From Myxacorys almedinensis A (GTDB taxonomy: Bacteria > Cyanobacteriota > Cyanobacteriia > Leptolyngbyales > Leptolyngbyaceae), in NCBI RefSeq assembly GCF_010091945.1, contig NZ_WVIE01000036.1:1-33375 (forward strand): DNA of 33,375 nucleotides. Direction: 5' to 3'. The translations under genes were made by a program, and so were the position numbers. Shown in pieces: positions 15,257 through 27,491 of this stretch. Numbering within the stretch: position 1 is the stretch's first letter; every line of letters starts with the position of its first letter. Below the pieces are notes generated by a model. The model was not told where the DNA came from, made no database searches, and was given only the letters and a program-made list of their open reading frames with translations.

Positions 15257-16375
15257 CTAGGCGGTGTATGTTTTCCCCAGACCCAGAGCGCCCAATCCTT
15301 TACGGTACGCGATCGAGGTTTGATCGGCGCGGATGTGCGATTCTGCCCGCAGATCGAGGGGCAAATCTTCGGGATACTGGGCTTCCACAACTTCCTTATC
15401 CTCAGCAAACACTTGATAGTTAAACTCGTAGATCGGCTCTAACGGAGAGTCTTTATCAAAGTTGCGACAGATTGGGCAAAATACCCGCGTCTGGCGCGCC
15501 GAAATAGGAGAGGCAGCATTTAGAATGCAAAGCCGCCCATCGTCTGGGAAATGAACCGTCAGCCGAGCCGTAAACGGAAAAAAAACCTCAAAGATCCGCA
15601 GCCATTCAAAATCAGCCGGGGCACGATGCTGCATTGCCTTTGGAAAATTGCTGACGGTACTGAGATACTCGGCGAGGATGCCGTTGGGTGTCTTTTTGAC
15701 CTCGTAGCGAGGCACGAGCGGATTATTTGAATCGCCAAACGAATTGGTGTGTACCCAAGCAAAATGGGCAACGTCTAAGAATCCTTCCATTTGCCGTCCG
15801 GATGCAGCGTTGAGATTTACGGCATCTGGCAGAATCTGTTGATAGTCTGGGTTATCCCATTCGTGGAAATCGGGCAAGGTGCGGTTTGCCTCGCGAGGCT
15901 CTGAACGATCGCTGCCTGTGAGGGAAGTCCACACTAGCCCGTAGGCTTCTCTGACTGGATAGGTTTTGAGGCAAAGCTTTGCAGGAATGCTAGCAGTTGG
16001 ATCGGCGGGAATTAAAACGCAGCGCCCCTCTGCCGAGTAGTGAAAGCCATGATATTTGCATACGAGTTGATCGCCCTTGAGGCTGCCCATGCTGAGAGGA
16101 ACACCTCGGTGTAAACAAATATCGTTTGCCACGGATAACCCTGCCGACGTGCGCCAAATGACCAAGCGCTGATCAAGCAACGTTGCAGAAATGGGATGTT
16201 GGTTGACCTCGTGGCTAAAGGCGATCGGATACCAAAACGAAGCCAGAACATCCCAATCTGACGCTTCAAAGGTGCACCCTCGTGGGTAGATTTTTTTTTC
16301 ACCTGTCTCAGTCTGAACTGTCTCAGCTTCGACTGTAGAATTTTGGACTGTAGAATTTTGAACTGTATTAACCAT
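15257..16375 (-). CDS. Rieske [2Fe-2S] ring-hydroxylating oxygenase, alpha subunit
   Basis: This is a 372-aa Rieske non-heme iron oxygenase (VanA/HpxD-type length and layout). The [2Fe-2S] ligands are Cys87-Leu-His89 and Cys106-Lys-Tyr-His109. The mononuclear iron motif is FLDVAHFAWVH (Asp201, His204, His209). The catalytic domain continues to RVFCPICRNFDKD and ends with a conserved-looking C terminus. The first 25 residues are a repetitive TVxxx linker encoded by a 15-bp tandem repeat plus a nine-A run. The start is ATG 16375; a TTG at 16384 is possible. No membrane segment is present, unlike pheophorbide oxygenases. It lies 225 bp downstream of guaD on the same strand, so a purine substrate (as for HpxD, which oxidises hypoxanthine) is an attractive but unproven idea. 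No partner reductase is in the window. Confidence 0.87.
   Translation of the reverse strand: MVNTVQNSTVQNSTVEAETVQTETGEKKIYPRGCTFEASDWDVLASFWYPIAFSHEVNQHPISATLLDQRLVIWRTSAGLSVANDICLHRGVPLSMGSLKGDQLVCKYHGFHYSAEGRCVLIPADPTASIPAKLCLKTYPVREAYGLVWTSLTGSDRSEPREANRTLPDFHEWDNPDYQQILPDAVNLNAASGRQMEGFLDVAHFAWVHTNSFGDSNNPLVPRYEVKKTPNGILAEYLSTVSNFPKAMQHRAPADFEWLRIFEVFFPFTARLTVHFPDDGRLCILNAASPISARQTRVFCPICRNFDKDSPLEPIYEFNYQVFAEDKEVVEAQYPEDLPLDLRAESHIRADQTSIAYRKGLGALGLGKTYTA
16303..16366. repeat. 15-bp tandem repeat in the Rieske N-terminal coding region
   Basis: Four full 15-bp units start at 16303, 16318, 16333 and 16348, each beginning CTGT, plus a partial fifth at 16363. Units 3 and 4 differ at one base. 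They encode consecutive TVxxx pentapeptides on the minus strand. A nine-T run (16291-16299; A9 in the coding strand) lies just downstream in the gene. Confidence 0.85.
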
Positions 16376-16600
16376 AATGTACAACGCTCTCTAGGAGGAT
16401 AGCTCGGAAGAGTAAATGCAGCAGGTTAAATTCAGGAAGTTAAATTTGCAAAATTAAACGTTGAATAAAGTGTGCTGTATACCCTAGCATTGGCAAGGCA
16501 GGGGGTTACAGTTGCTTTCGCTACTGAATCGCAGATTTTAACAATTGCAGTCGTGACCTTGGTTCAACGATCACCCAGTACAGGTAACAAGGAAGATAAT

Positions 16601-17935
16601 TTACTTTTGGTGTGCTAGTGTGCCAGCCACGTAGACAGCGTGAATCGCGCGATCGTCCCCTAACATAAGTGTGCCAAACACCTGATCAGAGAGTTCTTCT
16701 CGTGATTTTGCGGGAAACCCTTGATTGCGAACTGCCATCAGGGGCGTTGCTTGCGGGTCTAAGACGACAAAATCTGCCTCCTTGCCAGGATCAAAATTGC
16801 CAAGTTTGTCATCTAGAGAAAGCGCGATCGCACCTCCGAGCGTGGCTAAAAACAGTGCCTTAAACGCTGAAAGTGATTGGTTTTGAAGCTGGACGACTTT
16901 GTAGGCTTCACTCATCGTTTGCAGCATGGAAAAACTAGTTCCCGCGCCGATATCGGTTCCTAGACCCACCTTAATTGGCATAGTGGCTGACTTAGCGGTG
17001 TGAAGTTTAAATAGTCCGCTTCCTAGAAATAGATTGGAGGTCGGGCAAAACGAGATGGCAGCTTTGGCGTGAGACAGCCGTTGAAACTCTTCATCTGTCA
17101 GTTGAACCCCATGAGCAAACACAGACGTTTTGCCGACCAAGCCAGCGCGATCGTAAACATCAAGATAGCTTTTACTATTAGGAAATAATTCGGCAACCCA
17201 CTCTACTTCTTGAAGATTTTCTGACAGATGGGTGTGGAGATAAACATCTGGAAATTCTTGGAGCAATTGCCCTGCCAAGCGTAATTGTTCATCGGTAGAC
17301 GTAATTGCAAATCGGGGCGTAACAGCGTAAAGTAACCGACCGTTATTATGCCATTTTTGAATTAGTTTTTTGCTTTCTTCGTAAGCGCGTTGGGGGGTGT
17401 CGGTGAGAAAGTCTGGCGCGTAGCGATTCATCAAAACTTTTCCACAAATCATTCGCAGGTTAAGGCGACTCGCTACTTCAAAAAAGGCATCAACCGATTG
17501 AGGATGAACTGTTGCAAACACCAGCGCCGTTGTCGTCCCATTTTTTAGCAATTCATCTAAAAATAGCGCCGCAATTTTTTGAGCATAGGCATAATCATGA
17601 AACTTTCCTTCGGTTGGAAACGTATATTTGTTGAGCCATTCTAAAAGCTGCTCTCCGTAAGCCGCAACCATTTCATATTGAGGATAGTGAATGTGGGTGT
17701 CGATAAATCCTGGGGTAATTAATTTGTTAAAGTACGTTTCTGTTGGTAAGTTAGCGTATCTGTTGTGGAGATCGTCGTAGGTTCCAAAGTCTGCGATCGC
17801 GCCATTTTCAACAACTAGCAAACCATCAGAAATATAGCGCACACTATCTGCATCAGAGGCATAAAATGGATCATTGATAAAATCGAGAAAAGTGCCTCGA
17901 ATTGCATGAAGTGACGAAGGATTTTTTGAACCCAT
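16601..17935 (-). CDS. guaD: Guanine deaminase
   Basis: This 444-aa amidohydrolase converts guanine to xanthine and ammonia. The zinc and catalytic motifs are GFIDTHIHYPQ (His81, His83), LHTHLSEN (His236, Glu239), FAHG (His275) and GTDIGAGTSFSM (Asp328). The C-terminal beta-sandwich end, FDPGKEADFVVLDP, is present. The N-terminal HAIRGTFLDF is typical of GuaD. I chose ATG 17935; a TTG at 17947 would add four residues. The Rieske gene lies downstream on the same strand, and a purine permease is transcribed divergently. This context supports guanine use as a nitrogen source. A perfect 12-bp palindrome lies 17 bases upstream of the start. Confidence 0.94.
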   Translation of the reverse strand: MGSKNPSSLHAIRGTFLDFINDPFYASDADSVRYISDGLLVVENGAIADFGTYDDLHNRYANLPTETYFNKLITPGFIDTHIHYPQYEMVAAYGEQLLEWLNKYTFPTEGKFHDYAYAQKIAALFLDELLKNGTTTALVFATVHPQSVDAFFEVASRLNLRMICGKVLMNRYAPDFLTDTPQRAYEESKKLIQKWHNNGRLLYAVTPRFAITSTDEQLRLAGQLLQEFPDVYLHTHLSENLQEVEWVAELFPNSKSYLDVYDRAGLVGKTSVFAHGVQLTDEEFQRLSHAKAAISFCPTSNLFLGSGLFKLHTAKSATMPIKVGLGTDIGAGTSFSMLQTMSEAYKVVQLQNQSLSAFKALFLATLGGAIALSLDDKLGNFDPGKEADFVVLDPQATPLMAVRNQGFPAKSREELSDQVFGTLMLGDDRAIHAVYVAGTLAHQK

Positions 17936-17952
17936 ACCTTTGCCCAAAACTG

Positions 17953-17964
17953 GTTAAGCTTAAC
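17953..17964. promoter_or_regulatory. Perfect 12-bp palindrome between guaD and permease
   Basis: GTTAAGCTTAAC is fully self-complementary and sits 17 bases before the guaD ATG in the divergent intergenic region. This is a plausible operator for a dimeric regulator; no specific regulator can be named. Confidence 0.4.
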
Positions 17965-18041
17965 GTCTTTAAAAGGGATCTCGATTACTAAAACAAAAAA
18001 TATTTTGGAATCCCAAGCCCATTTGTTAAGGAGATTATGTA

Positions 18042-18077
18042 TTGAAAAGAACAATTAAATCGTTCATGGAAAACTAA
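18042..18077 (+). other. Possible 11-codon leader ORF upstream of permease
   Basis: A TTG-initiated frame encodes MKRTIKSFMEN then stops. It is preceded by a textbook AAGGAG (18028-18033) with an eight-base spacer. A two-codon ATG-TAT-TGA frame at 18037-18045 also fits this ribosome site. It ends 73 bases before the permease start. It is too short to judge by composition. Confidence 0.3.
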
Positions 18078-18150
18078 TATCGAACCATACTAGCCTAGGT
18101 TCCGGCAACACCGTTGAGAATATTTCATGCAATTTGGAGCAGGTTAATCG

Positions 18151-19578
18151 ATGAATACAGACCTTGATATTGAGCGATCGCAGCCCCCCCAAAGACCCTC
18201 TTATAGTGGATGGCAAGCCGCGATCGCCCGCTATTTTAAATTTGATTTTTATCACGCCAACTTCAAAACCGAAATTGTGGCAGGCGTGACAACCTTTATG
18301 ACAATGGCATACATCCTGGTTGTCAACCCCCTGATCCTATCCGATGCCATCTTTCTAAACCAGCCCAAAGATCTGTTTGCCGAACTCGTGGTAACAACAG
18401 CGATCGCATCTATGGTCGGAACCTTGGTGATGGCATTGGTGGCGAAGTATCCCTTTGCCCTAGCGCCCGGAATGGGCATCAATGCGTTCTTTACATACTC
18501 AGTCGTGCTGACGCTCAAGATCGATTGGCGCGTCGCTTTAGCGTGCGTGTTTTTGGAAGGGCTTGTCTTCATTGCCCTAACCATCACCGATATCCGGCGT
18601 CACCTGATTACCGCCGTGCCTGATGCGATCAAAGTTGCAACCACTGTCGGCATTGGGCTGTTTCTGGCTTACATTGGCTTGAGTGGCGCGGTCGAAACTG
18701 GCGGGGCAGGGCTGATTGCCGCCGACGCAGCCACCAAGACGACCCTTGGCAGCTTCCGCAATCCACAAGCAGTCTTAGCGATCGTCGGCATTTTTATGAC
18801 GATCTTTTTTATGGTGCGGCGGATCAAGGGAGCCATCCTCTGGGGCATTGTCGGAACGGCTGCCCTCGGCTGGGGTTTGGGGGTGGCGGCGGCTCCTAAC
18901 GGGGTGGTCGCTCTGCCTGTGTTGCCATCGCATCTGTTTGGGCAGGCGTTGGTCGGGCTGGGCGGCATCAATGCTGGCAATCTGATTGATTTTCTGGCTG
19001 TGTTGCTCGTGTTTCTGTTTGTCGATCTGTTTGACACCATCGGCACCCTTTCAGGCGTGGGCAAACAAGCAGGGTACATTGACGAGAAAGGCGAACTGCC
19101 CCGCGCCAACCAAGCGCTATTTGCCGATGCGATCGCAACGACCACAGGCGCAGTGATTGGAAATTCTGCCGTCACGACGTTTGTAGAATCTGCCGCAGGC
19201 ATCGCAGAAGGGGGACGGACGGGGTTTACAGCGATTGTCGTGGCAGCCTTATTTGGCGTCTCTCTGTTTTTTGGACCCGTTTTTGAGGCGATTCCGGGCT
19301 TTGCAACGGCTCCAGCCCTGACGATCGTAGGCGTGCTGATGATGACATCGGTGAAAAATATTAACTGGGATGACTTGGCAGAATCGGTTTCCGCGTTTTT
19401 AACGATCTTTTTGATCCCGTTCGGCTTTTCGATCGCGGCAGGGCTTTCGGCAGGGCTGATCGCGTATCCCCTGATCAAAGCCTTCCAAGGCAAAGCAAGC
19501 GATGTGACGGTCATTACGTGGGTTTTGGCAGCTATTTTTGCGCTGCGATTTGTCTTTATGGCGATTCGATTTGGCTAA
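18151..19578 (+). CDS. AzgA/PbuG-type purine (guanine/hypoxanthine) permease
   Basis: This 475-aa polytopic inner-membrane transporter belongs to the NCS2 family, AzgA/PbuG branch. The signature RYFKFDFYHANFKTEIVAGV, continuing into TTFMTMAYILVVNP, covers residues 27-62. ALAPGMGINAFFTYSVV, VDLFDTIGTLSGVGKQAGYI and the TTGAVIGNSAVTTFVESAAG segment are also characteristic. About 12-14 hydrophobic segments can be traced to the C terminus. It should import guanine, hypoxanthine or adenine by proton symport. Its divergent arrangement with guaD supports a purine substrate. A GGAG lies about 11 bases upstream of the ATG. Confidence 0.92.
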   Translation: MNTDLDIERSQPPQRPSYSGWQAAIARYFKFDFYHANFKTEIVAGVTTFMTMAYILVVNPLILSDAIFLNQPKDLFAELVVTTAIASMVGTLVMALVAKYPFALAPGMGINAFFTYSVVLTLKIDWRVALACVFLEGLVFIALTITDIRRHLITAVPDAIKVATTVGIGLFLAYIGLSGAVETGGAGLIAADAATKTTLGSFRNPQAVLAIVGIFMTIFFMVRRIKGAILWGIVGTAALGWGLGVAAAPNGVVALPVLPSHLFGQALVGLGGINAGNLIDFLAVLLVFLFVDLFDTIGTLSGVGKQAGYIDEKGELPRANQALFADAIATTTGAVIGNSAVTTFVESAAGIAEGGRTGFTAIVVAALFGVSLFFGPVFEAIPGFATAPALTIVGVLMMTSVKNINWDDLAESVSAFLTIFLIPFGFSIAAGLSAGLIAYPLIKAFQGKASDVTVITWVLAAIFALRFVFMAIRFG

Positions 19579-26174: not shown

Positions 26175-27491
26175 ATGAACGCAGTGGCTCAGAGCTTAGA
26201 ACAGTTGGTTAGCCCCACAGGATGGCTAGCGTGGGATGCTGTGGCAGCGCCTCGGCAACAGGCAATTTTACGGGCACTGCGTCCGGGGGTGCAGCCTGCT
26301 TATTTGGTGTATCCCCATACCCAAGCCGAACTCGCGTCAGTCATGGCGTTTGCCCACCAAAAGCGGTGGCAGGTGTTGCCCTGTGGCAGGGGCAGCAAAC
26401 TGCACTGGGGCGGCTTGGTCGCAGGGGCAACGTTGGTGATCAGCACAGAGCGACTCAATCGGCTGATCGATCATGCGATCGGAGATTTGACCGTTACCGC
26501 AGAAGCAGGACTGTCGTTTGCCGAGGTGCAACAGCACGTTGGCAAAGCGGGTCAGTTTCTAGCGATCGATCCGACCGTGGGCAGTTCTGCGACGGGCGCT
26601 ACTTTGGGAGGAATTGTTGCCACGGGAGATACAGGCTCGTGGCGGCATCGCTATCACAGCGTGCGAGACATGCTGTTAGGCATTACGTTTGTGCGCAGCG
26701 ATGGGCAACTGGTCAAAGCAGGCGGGCGAGTAGTTAAAAACGTAGCAGGCTATGACCTGATGAAGGTGCTCACAGGGTCTTACGGAACATTGGGCATTAT
26801 TACTCAGGTTACATTTCGAGTGTTTCCCCTGCCGTCTGCGTCTCGAACGGTGGTTTTAACGGGACAGGCAGATGCCCCAGGCACAAAGCGCACCTTCGAC
26901 CAGATCGCCAAGGCACTGCAAGCCCTGCTAAGTTCTGCGTTAACGCCCACGGCGGTAGACTTGCAATTAGAGCAAGGACTCCGGTTAGTGGTGCGGTTTC
27001 AGAGCCTATCTGAAAGTGTAGAATTGCAGGCAACGCGCCTCAATGAAATTGCATCTGCGCTAGGATTGTCTACAAGCAGTTGTGCGAACCATGTAGAACA
27101 AGCGTTATGGCAGACATCGAAAGATTTGATGGATAAAGCATCGCAAGAGCACGTAGTTTTGTGCAAGATTGGAGTGAAACCTTCTAATGCTGTAGAGGCG
27201 CTTTTTCAAATGGAACGTTTAATGCCAAATGCAACAGCCGTGATTCACGGAGGAAGTGGCTTAGGGCAAATGGCGATAGAGGGTGTGCGCTCAACCCAGA
27301 TCCAAGAGATGCGATCGCGGCTGCAATCATTGGGCGGTTATCTGTCAATTTTGCAAGCACCTCCTGATCTCAAACAGAGGATCGATGTTTGGGGCTACAG
27401 TGGCAACGCGCTACCGCTGATGAAGCAACTGAAACAGCACTTCGATCCTGACCAGCGATTAAGCCCTCAGCGCTTTGTAAGCGGAATTTGA
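26175..27491 (+). CDS. glcE: Glycolate dehydrogenase FAD-binding subunit (GlcE-like)
   Basis: This 438-aa FAD-linked oxidase subunit is of the glycolate dehydrogenase type. The FAD-binding PCMH domain shows PCGRGSKLHWGG (68-79), ERLNRLIDHAIGDLTVTAEAG (92-112), DPTVGSSATGATLGGIVATG and GGRVVKNVAGYDLMKVLTGS with YGTLGIIT. The C-terminal half is the oxidase cap domain, shortened as in GlcE relative to GlcD. It oxidises glycolate from photorespiration together with GlcD and GlcF. GlcF follows after one base. GlcD is not in the window. The gene starts 180 bp from the divergent kinase. An inverted TTACG-N7-CGTAA lies at 26149-26165 just upstream of the start. Confidence 0.85.
   Translation: MNAVAQSLEQLVSPTGWLAWDAVAAPRQQAILRALRPGVQPAYLVYPHTQAELASVMAFAHQKRWQVLPCGRGSKLHWGGLVAGATLVISTERLNRLIDHAIGDLTVTAEAGLSFAEVQQHVGKAGQFLAIDPTVGSSATGATLGGIVATGDTGSWRHRYHSVRDMLLGITFVRSDGQLVKAGGRVVKNVAGYDLMKVLTGSYGTLGIITQVTFRVFPLPSASRTVVLTGQADAPGTKRTFDQIAKALQALLSSALTPTAVDLQLEQGLRLVVRFQSLSESVELQATRLNEIASALGLSTSSCANHVEQALWQTSKDLMDKASQEHVVLCKIGVKPSNAVEALFQMERLMPNATAVIHGGSGLGQMAIEGVRSTQIQEMRSRLQSLGGYLSILQAPPDLKQRIDVWGYSGNALPLMKQLKQHFDPDQRLSPQRFVSGI

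Follow-up and report, generated by a model that had tools for sequence, protein, structure and literature searches.

A probable HpxD-type purine oxygenase encoded beside guanine deaminase in the cyanobacterium Myxacorys almedinensis A

The guaD locus

The DNA analyzed here, a stretch of 33,375 nucleotides that we call the window, is the entire contig C29 (NZ_WVIE01000036.1) of the 4.96-Mb genome of the cyanobacterium Myxacorys almedinensis A (assembly GCF_010091945.1, 85 contigs). It carries genes for a Rieske non-heme iron oxygenase, for the guanine deaminase GuaD and for a permease (Table 1). The first-pass annotation of this DNA had described guaD and the oxygenase gene as a minus-strand tandem with the permease gene divergent from them, and this was borne out: all three open reading frames (ORFs) were found at the same coordinates and on the same strands, with domain matches above cut-off. 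The tandem genes are separated by 216 bases, and their co-transcription is possible. The ATG at 16375 is the likely start of the oxygenase, in preference to the TTG at 16384, because the residues MVNTVQ begin the ORF of locus L018 and, internally, that of L009 too. Locus L018 belongs to a genus-mate, the Myxacorys californica assembly (G027), which has the same oxygenase gene; relatives of the permease also lie close to guaD and the oxygenase gene in L009, L015 and L018. The AzgA/PbuG label given to the permease is plausible.

Table 1. Features of the locus, with profile scores (cut-offs in brackets)
Feature	Positions	Strand	Basis
Rieske non-heme iron oxygenase, putative HpxD type	15257-16384	minus	Rieske PF00355, 66.5 bits (20.3); VanA_C PF19112, 77.4 bits (23.5); kinship to HpxD
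guaD, guanine deaminase (guanine to xanthine)	16601-17947	minus	TIGR02967, 588.9 bits (375.4); NF006679, 652.7 bits (351)
guaD/permease divergent intergenic region	17948-18150		without an NtcA-like GTA-N8-TAC site
Purine/xanthine-uracil family permease, divergent from guaD	18151-19578	plus	Xan_ur_permease PF00860, 157.9 bits (27); no NCBIfam model matched

Two signs of regulation were looked for. The GTA-N8-TAC pattern has two matches in the whole window (chance mean 1.99), both away from the locus, and an Rfam scan of the window at the gathering score gave no matches, hence no xanthine riboswitch was seen there.

Kinship of the oxygenase

Among proteins of solved structure, the best sequence matches of the oxygenase were SxtDIOX (GxtA; expect value (E) 2.9e-40), SxtT (E 1.2e-39), NdmA (E 6e-39) and NdmB (E 1.5e-33). 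The presence of both NdmA and NdmB in the top five brings up an NdmA/NdmB-like N-demethylase, whose substrates would be methylated purines (methylxanthines, or methylguanines released by the turnover of RNA) and which would supply guanine to GuaD. Pairwise identities point elsewhere. The oxygenase is 50.3% identical to Klebsiella HpxD (332 aligned residues), 49.9% to that of Pantoea and 56.6% to that of Paraburkholderia, vs. 34.4% to NdmA and 32.4% to NdmB; two proteins of a second, SxtT-like Rieske subfamily of cyanobacteria, described below, gave 30.7% and 35.0%. The oxygenase is thus nearer to HpxD-annotated proteins than to the other characterized Rieske oxygenases compared.

A tblastn search of plasmid records with the oxygenase matched 536 records. 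Identity was 45.9-55.4% in the best 40 of these 536, which were examined, and 15 of the 40 matches listed were annotated as "molybdenum cofactor-independent xanthine hydroxylase subunit HpxD"; the hpxD gene of Klebsiella pneumoniae in CP125156.1 matched with 49.1% identity over 91%. Six proteobacterial relatives were 49.9-56.6% identical to the oxygenase, three of them annotated as hpxD and three merely as aromatic-ring-hydroxylating dioxygenase. The motifs C-x-H...C-x2-H (Rieske cluster) and D-x2-H-F...H (2-His-1-carboxylate region) occur in the oxygenase and in all seven proteobacterial HpxD or HpxD-like sequences aligned. A structure predicted from 15 close sequences had a mean pLDDT (predicted local distance difference test) of 38.8 and was not used.

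In a quick tree, one side of a branch (98% SH-aLRT) held 57 cyanobacterial proteins together with the 7 from proteobacteria, and the Ndm proteins and the second subfamily lay outside. Two more careful trees placed the oxygenase inside a 35-row cyanobacterial clade (support 99/97 and 98/98) and kept the second subfamily separate (100/100); the cyanobacterial proteins grouped as one in 8% and 5% of bootstraps, and the Ndm proteins were not firmly separated from the HpxD set. Both careful trees were built without L213, L216 and L217, and the second also without L174 and L224. The first-pass annotation had asked where a tree would place the oxygenase among HpxD, NdmA, VanA and PaO. Identity to HpxD far above that to any other characterized Rieske enzyme compared answers this in part, the trees having left out VanA and PaO, along with the fragment L047.

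Purine genes in this genome and across cyanobacteria

The genome was then considered for the remainder of a purine pathway. It has no match to the molybdenum hydroxylase domain PF02738 or to uricase (PF01014), and 8-oxoguanine deaminase (8-OGD) was not found at E 1e-100. A homologue of HpxO is encoded at C5:65864-67018 (60% identical to a protein passing the NF033623 cut-off) and adjoins uraH; UraD and PuuE (541.7 bits) are encoded on contig C77. The genome therefore combines HpxO and urate-breakdown genes with no xanthine dehydrogenase (XDH) match, the result of a check for XDH and uricase genes that the first-pass annotation had recommended. Since GuaD makes xanthine and HpxO uses urate, the conversion of xanthine to urate is the sole step without a gene among the guanine-to-allantoate steps examined, and the HpxD homologue beside guaD would fill this gap. 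An N-demethylase would not account for this conversion in a genome that encodes HpxO, UraH, UraD and PuuE and has no molybdenum hydroxylase match; together with the identities given above, this makes it quite improbable. As a side observation on C5, a guanidine-I riboswitch (L215:7401-7531, minus strand; 72 bits against a cut-off of 63) precedes ATP-binding cassette (ABC) transporter genes that diverge from the hpxO-uraH pair.

We propose that the locus imports purines and begins their oxidation, and that its oxygenase is an HpxD-type enzyme converting xanthine to urate, an interpretation that we consider probable on the sequence evidence. The permease would take up a purine base, and GuaD would deaminate guanine to xanthine. 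The oxygenase would then hydroxylate xanthine at C8 with one oxygen atom of O2, yielding urate; conversion of hypoxanthine to xanthine may be a further activity, as reported for HpxDE. From urate, the pathway would continue toward allantoate and the release of nitrogen through HpxO, UraH, UraD and PuuE, whose genes lie on other contigs. The earlier suggestion of an oxygenase that hydroxylates xanthine or some other purine is thus supported for this genome by the identity to HpxD (50-57%, vs. 32-34% to Ndm proteins) and by the gene inventory. It is also less new than it seemed, the oxygenase being best filed as HpxD itself.

Gene neighbourhoods gave partial support. The 80 oxygenase loci read yield 65 distinct gene entries (the window is one, and L044 and L045, halves of one gene, are counted separately), and a core purine-catabolic gene lies within 5 kb in 13 of them: guaD in six, 8-OGD in five, including one fragment, PuuE and UraH together in one and XDH with XdhC in one (G141), with UraD additionally in three. 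Eleven of the 43 entries of group A, the closer group, lie near a purine gene, well over rough chance (p 3e-9, on a rate of about 2.4% per locus that is a rough assumption of 12 purine genes per 5.5 Mb and not a measured control). Guanine deaminase is the neighbour in M. almedinensis itself, G027, G227 and G137. A PF07969 amidohydrolase gene, which was not counted as a purine neighbour, adjoins the group-B oxygenase gene in genomes of two different families (L137:6511-7857 and L154:6036-7451).

The 8-OGD gene adjoins the oxygenase gene in L026, L032, L042 and L038 (interrupted in the last), and a 122-residue fragment of it in L014. These loci, and the occurrence of 8-OGD in 32 of the 38 genomes that carry the oxygenase (see below), would suit a guanine 8-hydroxylase, the oxygenase making 8-oxoguanine and 8-OGD converting this to urate, with GuaD as a competing branch. 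However, M. almedinensis, G027 and G227, in which guaD is the neighbour, lack 8-OGD at E 1e-100 (G137 has both), and 8-oxoguanine would therefore be a dead end there. The guaD and 8-OGD layouts alike also fit a general C8 oxidation of 6-oxopurines. On balance, a guanine 8-hydroxylase is unlikely.

To these neighbourhoods can be added the distribution of the genes in 213 cyanobacterial genomes of the class, 38 of which carry the oxygenase at E 1e-70; in an order-level search of 42 genomes, oxygenase hits split into those of at least 57% identity and those of at most 37%. HpxO was found in 35/38 carriers vs. 58/175 other genomes (p=8e-12, in a Fisher test that takes genomes as independent). UraD showed a similar pattern (35/38 vs. 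60/175), as did guaD (33/38 vs. 50/175), 8-OGD (32/38 vs. 41/175) and the presence of either guaD or 8-OGD (37/38 vs. 60/175).

None of the 213 genomes gave a match to classical uricase (PF01014), and 95 have UraD. This would leave room for the oxygenase to oxidize urate in place of uricase. We dropped this idea once HpxO homologues turned up in 93 of the 213 genomes, 35 of the 38 carriers and M. almedinensis among them: the step is already provided, and replacement of uricase by the oxygenase is exceedingly improbable. HpxO looks like the usual urate-oxidizing enzyme of the class, as judged from a search for uricase that did not extend to PuuD or HpyO.

The first-pass annotation had further suggested that the oxygenase replaces a molybdenum XDH. 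This is supported for M. almedinensis, one of 13 carriers without any PF02738 match, and was rejected as a rule, since 25 of the 38 carriers also have an XDH-like gene. Here, "XDH-like" means that the best PF02738 score reaches 240 bits or more, a cut of our own, with one such protein checked against NCBIfam (TIGR02965). Among HpxO-positive genomes, the oxygenase was present in 10/33 without XDH vs. 25/60 with XDH (p=0.37).

Several observations weigh against assigning the oxygenase to xanthine oxidation as an HpxD. In the two careful trees, a branch set off the HpxD and cyanobacterial proteins in 52% and 56% of the 200 bootstrap replicates, and NdmA and NdmB may fall inside or outside this set; filing the oxygenase under HpxD therefore rests mainly on identity and context. 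An NCBIfam scan of the oxygenase matched no HpxD model. No core purine gene lies within 5 kb in 52 of the 65 entries, and in group B only 2/22 lie near one, within rough chance (p=0.11). The comparison of neighbourhoods that the first-pass annotation had proposed thus gave a mixed answer, in which the copies are not consistently away from purine genes: excluding the window and one half-gene, 12 of 63 copies have a purine-catabolic gene within 5 kb, and the other 51 have none. Four of the seven proteobacterial loci that we read likewise have no annotated purine-catabolic gene within about 8 kb, the gene tables being incomplete. XDH-like genes are positively associated with the oxygenase (25/38 carriers vs. 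44/175 others), and the Fisher tests on co-occurrence ignore shared ancestry. Lastly, a search at E 1e-3 with HpxE from Pantoea found no HpxE partner in the window, in two other loci of the M. almedinensis genome or at 79 further oxygenase loci of cyanobacteria.

The 52 entries away from purine genes, and the absence of VanA and PaO from the trees, would also be compatible with an oxygenase for a non-purine aromatic compound or pigment breakdown product that adjoins guaD by chance. Against this stand the kinship to HpxD, the co-occurrence with HpxO and neighbours drawn from six purine functions (guaD, 8-OGD, UraD, UraH, PuuE and XDH), which make such a role very improbable. An HpxD-type xanthine hydroxylase thus remains our preferred assignment.

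Electron supply, a second subfamily and known systems

The absence of an HpxE match from the window agrees with the first-pass annotation, which had noted no reductase partner for the oxygenase. The same HpxE query at E 1e-3 finds HpxE by hpxD in three of the seven proteobacterial loci (Klebsiella, Komagataeibacter and Pantoea, the source of the query). Since HpxE was not found beside the other four HpxD or HpxD-like genes, we treat it as a mark of the HpxDE system and not of the HpxD family; in Paraburkholderia, hpxD adjoins genes for a rubredoxin and a flavin adenine dinucleotide (FAD)-dependent oxidoreductase. Electron donors thus seem to differ among lineages. The best HpxE match across the M. 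almedinensis genome has E 5.9e-7, and full-length matches of 27-28% identity occur elsewhere in the genomes of three carriers (G035, G040 and G113). A class-wide search at E 1e-5 matched 201 of the 213 genomes, mostly, among the matches listed, over a short C-terminal part, and carriers were indistinguishable from the others. Because no close HpxE was found in M. almedinensis, we propose that its Rieske cluster is reduced by a ferredoxin, probably the photosynthetic one, which is a plausible donor in cyanobacteria.

M. almedinensis encodes a second Rieske protein (C85:51634-52587; L210:6635-7588), whose nearest matches of solved structure are SxtDIOX (E 1.8e-73) and SxtT (E 1.4e-71). Its gene lies directly downstream, on the same strand, of a four-gene BMP-type (PF02608) nucleoside ABC transporter set. 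This second subfamily occurs in 32 of the 213 genomes (33 hits). We read 35 of its loci, comprising 27 of the 33 class hits and eight loci from the order-level search; the six class hits left unread are G018, G019, G020, G105, G207 and a second copy in G017. Within 5 kb, a core purine gene was present in 8/35 loci, a BMP transporter in 9/35, either in 17/35 and neither in 18/35. In L200-L205 the second-subfamily gene directly follows guaD, with uraH divergent in five genomes of a single genus (g18) and an XDH-like gene in G015. Carriers of the second subfamily are richer in HpxO (28/32 vs. 65/181 other genomes) and in XDH-like genes (26/32 vs. 43/181).

The saxitoxin skeleton is a reduced purine, which makes it worth testing whether the Rieske enzymes of saxitoxin synthesis arose from purine oxygenases. 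In a broader and more tentative scheme, which we regard as rather doubtful, cyanobacteria would oxidize purines with two Rieske subfamilies, both driven by ferredoxin: the HpxD type and the SxtT/SxtDIOX-like type found by guaD, urate genes and BMP transporters. These would replace XDH where it is missing, and the oxygenases of the saxitoxin pathway, acting on a purine-like skeleton, would descend from the second. The presence of the second subfamily at purine loci in about half of those read is more novel than the HpxD assignment.

As far as the excerpts of open-licence literature consulted go, neither HpxD in cyanobacteria nor a purine-oxygenase origin of saxitoxin enzymes is described in PMC7373994, PMC5270733, PMC11446756 or PMC12445004. 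A 2025 paper on purine use by ocean microbes (PMC11698098) lists XDH and PuuD, and its text contains no word beginning with 'hpx'. Genes of the HpxD type are readily overlooked, because many proteobacterial relatives are annotated solely as aromatic-ring-hydroxylating dioxygenase. Their presence in 38 of 213 sampled genomes would extend to cyanobacteria the molybdenum-free conversion of guanine to urate that is known in Klebsiella, and offers a candidate gene for xanthine oxidation in strains that have urate-breakdown genes but no XDH match. Photosynthetic ferredoxin could power this oxidation.

Among features of the window away from the locus, positions 26175-27491 encode a GlcE-like FAD protein (NF008439, 150 bits, under the cut-off of 284), with an ORF in the same direction directly after it.

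Pope and co-workers reportedly described guanine deaminase, HpxDE, HpxO and PuuE as a single pathway in Klebsiella oxytoca in 2009. What is most likely new here is an HpxD-type route in cyanobacteria that would operate without the usual reductase. The oxygenase shares 50% identity and the same motifs with Klebsiella HpxD, the oxygenase component of the (hypo)xanthine hydroxylase HpxDE. An annotated hpxO is present in three of the seven proteobacterial loci, and the Klebsiella locus brings together uraH, uraD, an NCS2-family permease gene, hpxO, hpxR and hpxD. M. almedinensis likewise has HpxO, UraH, UraD and PuuE, with no molybdenum hydroxylase match. Unlike in Klebsiella, its oxygenase gene adjoins guaD and a PF00860 permease gene with no close HpxE found, no LysR-type gene adjoins the three window genes or lies among them in the ORFs read, and the pathway genes are spread over contigs C29, C5 and C77. 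Many cyanobacterial carriers also differ from Klebsiella in having XDH-like genes. The methylxanthine N-demethylases NdmA and NdmB are likewise purine-acting Rieske oxygenases, but are far less similar to the oxygenase than HpxD is. The saxitoxin biosynthesis enzymes SxtT and SxtDIOX are its top solved-structure matches, yet the second cyanobacterial subfamily is far closer to both. Finally, the molybdenum xanthine dehydrogenase XdhAB would share with the oxygenase the same proposed net reaction, xanthine to urate, carried out by an unrelated protein with an unrelated cofactor.

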